From Coniochaeta sp. PMI_546 (lineage: Eukaryota; Ascomycota; Sordariomycetes; Coniochaetales; Coniochaetaceae): a DNA stretch of 64,000 nucleotides. Shown in pieces: positions 4,265 through 25,633 of the stretch; within the stretch, counting starts at the first letter, position 1, and every line of letters starts with the position of its first letter. The DNA is taken from the NCBI GenBank assembly GCA_021432605.1, contig MU271145.1, forward strand, positions 806,001 to 870,000, given 5' to 3'. The notes beneath the pieces are model-generated. The model searched no databases, was not told the origin of the DNA, and saw only the letters and a program-made list of their open reading frames with translations. The position numbers and the translations under genes were made by a program.

Positions 4265-7200
4265 CTACCGAACACGAATCAACGGCACGAAATGCACCCC
4301 TTCCATGGACGGGGCAGTGATATCACTGATGTCAGCCAGACCTCGTTCGTAGAGTGCCAACCAAACTGCATCGGCATTGACATCCTCCAAAGCCTGCCGC
4401 ACATCCCCCATCGACGCTGCAACATCAATCAACAGCTCCAGAATCTGATCAAAAATGCTGTCGTCGAGCCGCACATACGACACGATACTCGTGAGCAGCC
4501 GCACGACAGCAGTCCAGACCTGCGACGCTTGCGAAAACCTGCCTAGGCCAGACGAGGTATCGCCTGTAACCCGCGAGGCTATGACGCCGTCGCTGCCGCT
4601 CGGTACAAGCTGTAGATCCTTCATAGGCGTAGACGATAGCTTTGCCGGCTCAGCCGCCGTGATGCCTCCTCGCATGGGAAGGAGGATATCTGCCCCACCA
4701 GCCCTAGGTTGACCGACGCCGACGCCGTAAGAGCGGCTGAGCGACGCCGAGGCTTGACTTCTACGGTCGCCAGCTTGAGCCTTCCGTTTCTCCATCGCCT
4801 CACCCCCAGCCTGCTCTTTAACTCTGGCGCACCACCGGCCCATCCGCTCACCCCACTCAGTCTTGATCCGACTAGCGAGAAAATCGCCTGCGCTCTCGCA
4901 CAGGCTCGCCAGCGTGTCGCACGCGGCGATCACGACGAAGGGCTCACCGTCGCGAAGTCGAGAGACCACAACGGGCCAGACGGCGTTGACAAGTGGTAGA
5001 AAAGAATCTTCGTCTGCCGATAGAGCCGGTGCGGCCCGCGATAAGAGGTCAAGCAGGCGGCGACGCAGGGTTGGGGATGGGGAGGTGAGGTGGTGCTGGG
5101 TTAGGGTTGTTATGCGTGAGAGGAGGGTATAAGTCGGTGTAGGGGGCGGTTTGGGAGCTTCCACTTGTTGGTCTTGTTCTGGGGGCGATCCTTCGTCATC
5201 GGATGCAGACGGATGTATTTCATCGAATGTTTCAAGGAAGGACTTGGGTTTGCTGTCCTTGGGAGGACCCCATGGTTCTTTGGGATGGGGATATGAGAAG
5301 TCGCCGTCGTTTGCGCTGTTATTATTGCGCTCGTGATGTTTGTCAAGAAAGGATATCATCCCTTCTATGCCCTCCGACCGCGGAGGCCTCTTCTTGTGAT
5401 CGAGGCTCTTTGGCCTGGAGGTGTCACCGAGGAGCAGCAAATCGGACTTCGCACCCTGCTCGACAACTTCCGAAAGCACGGAAAACAGGCTCTCAACGAA
5501 CACTGGGTAGCCGTGGTAATTGTCCAGCGCAGCGAATATGGAGGCTACAACGTCGTCTAGGAAGGGTAAGAGCTTCGGTCCGCTTAGCCGGATCATCATG
5601 TTTAAAACCCGTACTGAGGCAGGGGATATGTCGAAGGTGTTCAATCGCAACGACAGTGAGTTAACCATATAGTCGACGTTGTCGATAACCAGGTCCGATA
5701 CGTTCGTGTAGCCACACGAGGCGGCCATGATGTTGAGGGTTGTGATAGCGTGGCTGCGCAGCTGACGGTTTTGCGAACCCATGAATGTCGTGATCGGGTA
5801 GAGGACGTCTATCAGCTCGGGCCGGAAGTCCTTCTGCAGGCGTGTTGCTGCGAAGGCTGCGGCTTCTAGGGCAATGGCCTCTAGTCTCCAATCTACCTCG
5901 TCTATGTCAGAATGGGAGGCGATGATGGTAGCGGAAAAGTCGTAGAGCTCGTGGAACACAGTGTCTTGTTGTACGGAGCCGGCCGTCGCGCCAAGATCCA
6001 GGAAGCTGTCCAGCTCATCCGCGGCCGAGCTAGTGTAGCTGGCTTTCATGAGCTCGAAAGAGAGCCAAAAGGATGCGATCTGGTCCACGCCTTCCACGTC
6101 TCGTAAGCCACTGAGCAGCTCAGACGCAAGCTTGACCTGCTGCGCCGGAGACCCAATGTTGGTGATTAGAGACTCCATCTCCTTCGTCGTGTTTCGCTGG
6201 CCATCCAGGGCAAAGATAACCGGGCGATACTCATGTACCGTCAGTTCTGATGTTGTCATGACGACGGCTTTCATCGGATTCTCGTCCATATCGTCGTCGA
6301 CAACACTGGGCTGTTTTGAGTTCTTGATAAGCACTACGACGCTGTCCTTGAGAGCATCTGCGATAGAGTCCTCCAGGATCGACGAGTCCAGCTGAAGCGT
6401 TGCAATGAGTTTGCTTCCATTGAGAAAGTTCCGAATGGCCTGCTTCCTGAGTCGCTCTTCGCTCGACTGCATCAGTCGAGGAAGTCCGGTAACCCAGTTA
6501 TACATGACTGATCTGATAGTGTCTCCCAGTTCTGGGTAAATGCTGGCCATGTCCTCAAGAGTGGTCTCCTGGTTAATGACACCAACATCGTCCTGCTGCG
6601 TTGTCATTGCGGTCTCAACCAAGATGGTCTTGCACTCCACAAGAGATTTGTGACATTCGTCTAGTAGCCCAATGCATAGCCTGTACAGCTCGCCACGTAC
6701 ATTTTCCGAGTCATGAGTGCGCAGCTTAAGGATGGATGCTAATGCTATCTTAATCTGCGAGGCGGTTGCTCTTAGCCATGCTGGGGTCAAGACCTTGCTG
6801 GCGCCATTGGCTTCCGGCTCCGTCTCCTTCGGCTCAACGTAAGCCGCGTCCTCGCGGCCATGCGTTAGCTGGACATGTTTGATATCATTCAGAATGTGAC
6901 GCGTCTTTATATCACTTAAGACACAGACCAAGATAGTATTGAGCGACCGCACAGCCTTGATAAGTAGCCTCGTCGGCGTCTTCAGCGATGTTGGGGGAGC
7001 TAGAGTCCGAGTGAGTGATGAGACCGTCCCTGGTAAGAAGGACGCGAGAACCGCGTTGTCCTTGATACTCTTGTAGAGGGCATCGAGACATTCGAGTGCT
7101 GCTAGCTGTATCTCGGGGGTCGTCCCATCGGTGACGCCGTCAAGAATAAGCGATACGGCATGGCCCAGTGTTGGGATCATCTTATCCTCAAGCAACGCAG

Positions 7201-23354: not shown

Positions 23355-25633
23355 ATGTGGTTTTCCGTCGGCTCAAGACGTCCAAGTTTGAATGCCTCGC
23401 TTGGCTACGACTCTCGGGCACAGCTCAAGGATGGCATGAAGGGTCTCTTGTGCCAATGTTTCGAAACGTCTTCCGACAGGGCGACAGCGGGTAGCATGCG
23501 AGAAACAGACAAGTCAAGCCCATACGTTCCCTTGAATCCTCGAGAAAAAGAGGTATGCTGCCAATATTTGCGGTCATAGATGTCGCGTCTATTGATACCG
23601 AACAAAACAGCGTCGGAAAACAGCACGCGGACCGATCGACCCCCATCAATTCGAATCCAAACGGTCAGTGGATTCTTCTTCCGATTCTACGGAAGACCTG
23701 TTCAAGGAACCGTCGCCGCCTACCCAGATGAAACTCTCGGCAAAATACTCGTCCGCGCGAGGCTCACCGTTCGAGAATCCCCAGACTTTGTCAAGTCGGT
23801 CGTCACGCGGAGACCGGACCGCGGAGTCGTACATCATACACGACAGAGATCAGGCGGACAGACGAATGCTTAGGGGCCAGGAGACCAAAGAAGAGGAGGA
23901 CGAGGATGGCGAGTACAATATATCATCAAATGCATCAATAACATATCTCCTGCAACAGAAAGATATGTCACGCCGACCAGAAAATCCTTCCTCCCGTCAA
24001 GGCAAGGGCACCAAATATAACGAACCTGCCCCATTCCGTAAGAAACCTCCGCCCATGCACTCCTTCGAGAAGCACCCCTTTTCCAAGCCGCAACCGCAGG
24101 AGAGCAGAACTCGGAGAAAGTCAACTTTCCACCTCCTCCGAAGCAGAGAGTACGGCTCGAGTTCAAAGGACTGCGGCACAGGCGAGGACACCGCGTCCGC
24201 GGACCTTGAAGAATATCTCAATATCAACCCTGTGATTCGACAGCTCAAAAAGCAGCTAGACCCCCTGAATTATACAGAATTTTGGTTTACAGCCGAGCAA
24301 GTCGACGGGGCGCTGGACTTCAGCAACTCGGTCCGCAAATGCATTGCTCAGACCGAGACTTTCGGTGAAGAAACAGAGAGGCTCGACAGATGGCTCAATA
24401 TCATGTTACTAGAAGCAAGGGAAGGGCCCCATCGTCTCGAGTTCCAGCTCATCAAGTACGCCCACCTGGACAAGATGATAGAGGAAATCGTCGCGTTCAA
24501 GACTAGGCCACCTACCTTGCCTTTCAAGGAACTTCAGATGGTCGAGATAGCAAGTGACCTCCTGAGGTACTGGAGGCACCGGTTCGGCAACCGGTACTAC
24601 CTCCTTGATCGACATCGGCAGGAGATCCTGATGGCCACGCTGCTCGATGGCCTGGGATTCAAAACCCCGACGCCTGCCACACCGACAGGCTGGGTGCCCC
24701 TAAACATCAACTGGATGTCTGAGCGCGAGGCGGAAGATGAGTTTGAAGAAGGCCAGTGGTAGGTGAATCTGGCCGCTGCTCATCGAGATGGCATGGTTGG
24801 GACGCAGATCGATAAGCCAACAAAAGGAAGATTCGGGTACACAGCCATACCTCTCATGACTGGTAAGGAGGAAGACGTCCAGGACGGCAGAGTCACGTAT
24901 GTCCGGGAGGAGAATGAACAGCGCAGAGCCCCGAGCTTGGGTGAGGTCTCAATGCTATCACTTCTTGGGGCGAAGGTCCGGTTGTTAAGAGGAGCTGGGT
25001 TGCAAAGTGCCTATGCTCCTGCAGCCGGAGTAAGATACGACGGCGTGTAAGTTCAAATCTACATCAAGGAATAGCATCCTGTTCTGACACTCATGAAAAA
25101 TTTTCAGTTGGACTGTCAAACAATACGGCCACAGTTCCATCCCAGGCACCGGGGTGCGTCGCCTGACCCTGACTTTCGAACGAACAAACCCGCAGCGACC
25201 GATGAGTGAACTAGCAGCAATACCAACTCCGGCAGCGGTAGATTACTACCGTCTGTTCGAGAAGATGGATACGCTCCTGAGAGAGCGGGCGGTAACGGCG
25301 TACGCATACCAAGACTGGCATCACAGAAGAGCACGGTTGAAGCTGGCGAGAGAGCAGTGGCAGAGACTACGTGTGTTCCGAGAGGGACTCGAATACCGTA
25401 GGCAGAGAGACTGGGCACTCGCGGCGAAGGCGGCAAGGGCCAATAATGTCCTAGGAAAGGTGTCCTCTGGTATCTAGGAGAAGAAGGAGTCCATTAAGGA
25501 GTTTGCAGCGGCGAGGAAACGATCCAAGGAGCCTAGCGTAACGGCAACGGATACGAGCCAGTTCGCTTTGGCGCCGGACAACAAGATTTATCCTGGGTCG
25601 TGGGAGCGGAAGACGATGATGAATGCCGTATGA
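23355..25633 (+). pseudogene. SRA-YDG domain protein gene interrupted by two in-frame TAG codons
   Basis: Exons 23355-23552, 23611-25046 and 25108-25633 make one continuous 719-codon frame except for TAG at 24760-24762 (codon 450) and at 25475-25477 (codon 668). The N-terminal part is low-complexity and basic/acidic; residues about 240-430 form the helical region that precedes the SRA domain in fungal relatives, ending FEEGQW. The SRA-YDG domain begins directly after the first TAG (VNLAAAHRDGMVGT) and includes EEDVQDG, GAKVRLLRGAG, YAPAAGVRYDGVW and LTFERTNPQRP. SRA domains bind hemi-methylated or otherwise modified cytosine. If the first TAG stops translation, the product lacks this domain entirely. 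The frame continues protein-like past the second TAG to TGA at 25631. Both TAGs fit single CpA-to-TpA transitions. Alternatives are sequencing error or read-through. Confidence 0.68.

Follow-up and report, generated by a model that had tools for sequence, protein, structure and literature searches.

A gene for a YDG-like protein in Coniochaeta sp. PMI_546 contains two in-frame TAG codons, and it is likely (with a probability of roughly 0.7) that the gene is not decaying and that both TAGs are corrected in the mRNA by A-to-I editing, most likely by Tad2-Tad3 together with Ame1 during sexual development. The editing itself, its timing and the enzyme are deduced here from sequence. In Sordariomycetes, the tRNA deaminase Tad2-Tad3 and its cofactor Ame1 edit mRNAs of fruiting bodies, with a preference for U at position -1 and for hairpin loops, and correction of UAG to UGG is described for 70 Fusarium genes besides PUK1, FgRID being among those studied (passages in PMC11156358). 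In the Coniochaeta gene, an A-to-I change would convert each UAG to UIG, which would be decoded as UGG (Trp). The unedited transcript would yield a protein of 449 residues with the helical domain only; editing of the first stop (site 1) would add the YDG-like domain, and editing of the second (site 2) would add the conserved C-terminus. Editing, named in the initial annotation only as a point to be checked, appears to be the best explanation because of the continuous frame, the conservation around the stops, the end shared by the proteins of relatives, the Trp found in homologs, a predicted hairpin and the presence of an Ame1-like gene with an MV signature. This arrangement may act as a switch controlling a protein similar to DNA-methylation readers.

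Gene structure and the YDG-like domain

The window, i.e. the whole stretch of 64,000 nucleotides that was analyzed, is located on one contig (C3) of the host genome, which comprises 24 contigs and 33.5 Mb. The upstream neighbor of the gene codes for an mRNA capping enzyme and the downstream neighbor for a PPIC-type isomerase; the features of the gene itself are listed in Table 1. When two introns are taken out, a single frame runs from the ATG at 23355 to the TGA at 25631, with stops only at codons 450 and 668; the N-terminus encoded from this ATG (MWF..RRPSL) is common to the homologs P0002 and P0004. The 719-codon reconstruction confirms the initial annotation in that both TAGs lie within one frame, and protein-like sequence indeed continues through them to the TGA without any other stop. 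The intron that had been recognized is present; however, the gene has two introns rather than one.

Table 1. Features of the interrupted gene; positions are counted from the first nucleotide of the window
Feature	Positions	Strand	Remarks
Complete gene, 719 codons (both TAGs counted as residues)	23355..25633	+	three exons, TGA 25631-25633
Exon 1	23355-23552	+	
Exon 2	23611-25046	+	
Exon 3	25108-25633	+	
Intron 1 (GT..AG, 58 nt)	23553..23610	+	model of P0002 (C. ligniaria) joins EKE|RRE at the same point
Exon 2, upstream part to site 1	23611..24759	+	final ~180 codons form a helical domain resembling the TFIIS N-terminal domain
Hairpin (predicted), GGCCAG / 12-nt loop containing UAG / CUGGCC	24751..24774	+	
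Site 1, in-frame TAG, codon 450	24760..24762	+	second Trp of conserved GQWW
YDG-like domain, first part	24763..25046	+	also conserved in relatives (8 downstream-only ORFs)
Intron 2 (GTAAGT..TTTTCAG, 61 nt)	25047..25107	+	within YDGV|W
YDG-like domain, remainder, and long C-terminal helix	25108..25474	+	
Site 2, in-frame TAG, codon 668	25475..25477	+	covered by homologs P0001, P0002, P0003, P0031, P0032, P0034, P0035, P0036
Conserved C-terminus	25478..25633	+	ends KIYPGSWERKTMMNAV, then TGA

The deposited model BR93DRAFT_975798 (P0008, 186 aa; 100% identity to the window gene) begins at Met 24856 and ends at the second TAG. Its start at this Met would suit two separate genes, one for a short upstream protein and one for a YDG-like protein with its own start, but such an arrangement is extremely unlikely: a start at Met 24856 would leave out conserved residues, P0001 and P0003 each form one protein, and the same misannotation is described for the Fusarium gene CHE1 in passages of PMC11169179.

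The SRA-YDG label given to the gene in the initial annotation is tentative. The protein has an RYDG motif, and Foldseek matches it to SUVH6 (E 4.7e-3), SUVH5 (E 1.5e-2) and TagI (E 1.6e-2) at a probability of 1.00, but phage tail and baseplate barrels rank equal or higher; the pLDDT of the predicted barrel ranges from 34 to 85 by blocks of ten. Support from the sequence is weak, as the window protein reaches 15.8 bits (E 0.013) with Pfam SAD_SRA (PF02182), below the cut-off of 30.7. P0030 scores 18.3 bits with this profile, and P0001 and P0003 have no match at E 0.1. A Pfam RXLR match in exon 2 (E 0.27) is below the cut-off and was taken as chance.

Conservation at the two stop codons

Homologs were collected in three sets: at least 7 proteins out of 7998 scored candidates, 9 of 118 when the sequence beyond the first stop served as query, and at least 29 with a profile (7994 scored). 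Among the 29 profile matches listed, 21 reach site 1 from upstream, seven hold later parts only (P0008, P0012, P0031, P0032, P0034, P0035 and P0036) and one (P0033) ends earlier. Fourteen of the 21 listed proteins reaching site 1 group with the window gene in a Coniochaeta clade of 15 rows (branch support 100/100; the tree was rooted at the midpoint for drawing only), and 12 of these 14 end exactly at ...GQW or GLW. Trp after GQW, which had been expected in fungal homologs, is indeed found: P0001 and P0003 read WW and the Daldinia protein P0030 reads GHWW, so the stop occupies a position where TGG is expected. P0001 (Coniochaeta sp. 2T2.1) reads GQWWVN at site 1 without a stop, which counts against editing.

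The event had been regarded as young, which is at odds with the identical end residue in 12 of the 14 listed clade proteins, whose pairwise identities are 56-90% apart from one nearly identical copy. This copy, P0017, comes from another source, shares 99% identity with the window across 177 columns and is one of the 12 proteins ending at GQW or GLW; an assembly error as the cause of the TAG at site 1 is therefore unlikely.

Conservation continues beyond the stop. Besides P0008, eight downstream-only ORFs of 84-109 residues are 72-86% identical to the window protein after the stop (9 matches of 118), and three of them (P0009, P0010 and P0016) begin at the codon directly following it. P0026 and P0016 probably represent the two halves of one gene, since they come from the same source and both lie on an 8842-base contig. 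Compared with P0001, identity is 55% over residues 1-249, 79% (158/200) over residues 250-449, 78% (170/217) over residues 451-667 and 73% (37/51) over residues 669-719. The corresponding values before the stop (residues 250-449), between the stops and after the second stop are 69, 74 and 69% for P0002, and 60, 60 and 32% for P0003. The similar identity of the window gene to that of strain 2T2.1 before and after the stop indicates that the tail is not released from selection.

This bears on the possibility that the gene is a pseudogene in early decay, in which C-to-T changes, by repeat-induced point mutation (RIP) or by chance, produced stops at two CpA sites. Both stops are compatible with CpA to TpA changes, and the stop at site 2 is absent from the eight homologs listed that cover it. 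Decay is nevertheless unlikely, given a tail as conserved as the front, the common end of 12 of the 14 clade members listed and a single-copy gene with ordinary RIP indices. The only DNA match of the gene in the genome is the gene itself, and a search with the protein finds only its own exons. The RIP product and substrate indices are 0.67 and 1.12 for the gene, compared with 0.73 and 1.18 for the window and extremes of 0.95 and 1.02 over 2-kb pieces of the window. RIP, which the initial annotation had favored as the cause, is not supported because the gene is single-copy and these indices are ordinary.

Judged from the proteins, the common end of the relatives at GQW or GLW would correspond to TAG codons; a search for the DNA of the gene in these relatives gave 28 pattern matches in genome_contigs and 142 in viral_contigs, none of which was confirmed. 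In principle, the GQW ends could also be read-through intron donors. Such an intron seems to exist in the outgroup, where, among the seven rows listed, P0003 and P0030 read WW and GQ is the end of P0006, P0007, P0020, P0021 and P0025, which is what translation of CA|GTRAGT would give. P0012, likewise from the outgroup, has an opening stretch unlike the family followed by RWWVN, and MRNGPFTNCYAR precedes its WWVN, as expected of an intron end. An outgroup intron between GQ and WW would mean that the GQ-ending proteins need no TAG; given P0012, a TAG at these ends was dropped in favor of the intron. The outgroup intron apparently lies immediately upstream of the Trp-Trp at which the Coniochaeta stop occurs, so that both share the same spot.

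It could be argued, then, that the common end in the relatives reflects an intron at an ancestral GQ^WW, and that only the species of PMI_546 lost this intron and subsequently gained a private TAG; site 1 would then lack conservation, and either editing or decay could follow. We consider this scenario distinctly unlikely. It requires that in the Coniochaeta clade the intron be displaced downstream by one codon, and that the private TAG happened to fall on the very codon at which 12 proteins end. Moreover, in the model of C. ligniaria (P0002), EFKE is followed directly by DGVVG, which skips 12 residues at site 1 and is no splice to WW, and three downstream ORFs begin at the very next codon. A shifted intron could produce the GQW ends in the Coniochaeta clade, but it is less likely, because VNLAAAHRDG directly follows the TAG in the window, the codon coincides with the 12 ends and residues are skipped in the C. 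ligniaria model, as has been described where false introns were called across edited stops (passages in PMC11169179 and PMC4817773).

Site 2 differs from site 1 in its conservation. In the order of the homologs in Table 1, its residue is R, Q, R, Q, Q, K, S and R (the first three determined by program, the other five by eye), and none of these eight listed homologs has Trp there. The position is thus best described as variable, tolerant and non-Trp, and among the matches listed the TAG occurs in the window gene only, the eight homologs covering it having no stop; both points count against editing at this site. The initial annotation had proposed a change from CAG to TAG, which is possible in view of Q in three of the eight homologs; however, three others have R, one K and one S.

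Context of the stop codons and candidate editing machinery

According to passages in PMC9600606, editing favors Y, U, [A], R, G, R and R at positions -2 to +4, and more than 62% of the edited sites of Fusarium are located in a hairpin loop within +-30 nt. In both stops of the Coniochaeta gene, position -1 is U and positions +1 and +2 are G. Site 2 agrees with that study at all six preferred positions, as do 30 of the 1246 TAGs in the window, and site 1 fits four of six, with a disfavored G at -2 and U at +3; at least four positions are matched by 713 of the 1246.

Structure prediction places the UAG of site 1 in a hairpin loop for five of the six flank sizes tried: with flanks of 15, 20, 30, 50, 75 and 100 nt, the loop probabilities are.98,.07,.97,.98,.95 and.71, and the hairpin is lost at +-20. 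The structure predicted at +-30 adds an outer helix, in which 24736-24742 pairs with 24778-24784. When structures at +-30 were predicted for 1244 TAGs on both strands of the window, 405 TAGs were in a hairpin loop and 47, site 1 included, were in one at least as stable as that of site 1. An ungapped flanking stem of at least 7, as found at site 1, occurs at 92 of the 1246 window TAGs, and among 2000 synonymous recodings of site 1 the A was in a loop in 540 and as stably so in 11. For site 2, the predicted loop probabilities at the same flanks are.80,.91,.01,.23,.24 and.04; unlike that of site 1, its A falls outside any hairpin loop at +-30 (P.01). When codon usage was scanned across the window to find interrupted frames, site 2 came at rank 3 and site 1 at rank 20 of 417, so that site 1 was not singled out. 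As a control modeled on PUK1, the host genome was scanned for kinases, which gave 141 matches, 14 of them with a single internal stop (8 TAG, 5 TGA, 1 TAA), a count confounded by introns.

The stops could also be bypassed without editing. Alternative splicing that removes them is very improbable, although there are in-frame GT..AG pairs (45-150 nt) whose excision would eliminate the stop and introduce no new one (8 of 10 for site 1, 24 of 24 for site 2) and FgBUD14 employs splicing besides editing (as described in part of PMC11156358). At site 1, all eight pairs have poor donors and each deletes conserved residues, and the sole good donor (GTAGGT at 24759, two pairs) creates a TGA; moreover, VNLAAAHRDG or a similar sequence is retained in P0001, P0003 and the downstream ORFs. 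At site 2, one pair with a consensus-like donor and acceptor (25371-25508, GTGTGT..TTGCAG) is a possible intron. Readthrough by ribosomes is favored by contexts that start with C after the stop. Programmed readthrough of both UAGs would likewise keep both halves of the protein under selection, but it is extremely improbable, as both are followed by G (GTG and GAG) rather than by such a context, and it leaves the hairpin and the Trp unexplained.

The genome contains three DUF726 (Ame1-like) genes, on contigs C7, C11 and C2, which have KN, MV and LD, respectively, at the key position. In Fusarium Ame1, MV (ancestrally KN) decides binding to Tad3, and the switch is described for Ame1 of Sordariomycetes (passages in PMC11087585). 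The C11 gene is identified by sequence comparison as Ame1-like with the Sordariomycete MV signature; by a hand count back from the serine of GYS, its MV deviates by one residue from the published numbering, but KN and MV align together. The third gene (G000:C2:732335-733397, LD) has matches that contain stops (TAG, TAA), which may be introns.

Relation to known systems

The Coniochaeta gene resembles PUK1, AMD1, FgRID, FgAMA1 and FgBUD14 of Fusarium graminearum, all of which are edited by Tad2-Tad3-Ame1, in its in-frame UAG, the U at -1 and the open frame beyond the stop. The expected Trp and the hairpin loop of the F. graminearum genes with premature stop correction are shared by site 1 only, site 2 being non-Trp. 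PUK1 contains two tandem UAGs that are edited to UGGUGG (as described in PMC11156358, in part), whereas the Coniochaeta gene is YDG-like and its editing is proposed from sequence. Fusarium CHE1, which is edited in hyphae, has a stop that is conserved among related species, similar to the ends at site 1 in the Coniochaeta proteins. For this stop, passages in PMC11169179 describe three annotation outcomes: an end at the stop, a start at a downstream Met and a false small intron. All have counterparts here, in P0004 and other ORF calls (end), P0008 (Met start) and P0002 (false intron). CHE1 is, however, a zinc-finger gene with one such stop, whereas the Coniochaeta gene has two stops and a YDG-like domain.

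With UHRF1, SUVH5/6 and TagI, which are SRA-YDG readers of modified cytosine, the Coniochaeta protein shares the RYDG motif, and Foldseek lists SUVH6, SUVH5 and TagI among its matches; it differs from them by its score below the Pfam cut-off, a reduced domain and an extra helical front and tail. It is possible, but tentative, that throughout Coniochaeta a conserved UAG holds off a protein resembling such readers, that editing gates this epigenetic reader in the sexual cycle alongside FgRID, and that the unedited helical-domain form is a separate isoform. Correction of stops by editing is documented for a few model Sordariomycetes. Searches of the open-licence literature found no report of A-to-I editing in Coniochaeta (Coniochaeta and RNA editing returned a taxonomy revision only) or of such editing with SRA-YDG in fungi (YDG, RNA editing and fungi returned cephalopod work only). 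If many Coniochaeta lineages have retained the stop ahead of a reader-like domain, this would imply long-term selection for an editable state. Editing would then be tied to the biology of DNA methylation and genome defense, at which the editing of FgRID already hints (passages in PMC11156358), and Coniochaeta gene models would be split or falsely spliced at such sites.

Another type of editor, the OTT_1508-like deaminase, acts in the OLD-ZAO system of Neurospora crassa (described in part of PMC12754623). This module differs from the situation in Coniochaeta, where the window contains no OTT_1508-like deaminase gene adjoining the gene and the target is not a zinc-finger factor. Five OTT_1508-like deaminase genes are found in the genome. 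Two of the five have C2H2 zinc-finger genes within a few kb, resembling the OLD-ZAO pairs of Neurospora; these are located in L019 (G000:C15:21000-30900) near 6936-7154 on the plus strand, and in L022 (G000:C3:10500-20400) on the minus strand, at offsets 7684 to about 7876 counted on the reverse complement. Judged by eye, the frame that probably encodes the N-terminus of each of these zinc-finger genes contains an in-frame TGA in a CTTGAG context rather than a TAG.

The genome also has cytosine-methyltransferase matches on contigs C14 and C5 and, weakly, on C17. The sole SRA match in the genome above the Pfam cut-off, L001 (G000:C22:289249-292689, minus strand), has an intact frame of 468 codons and scores 112.6 bits.
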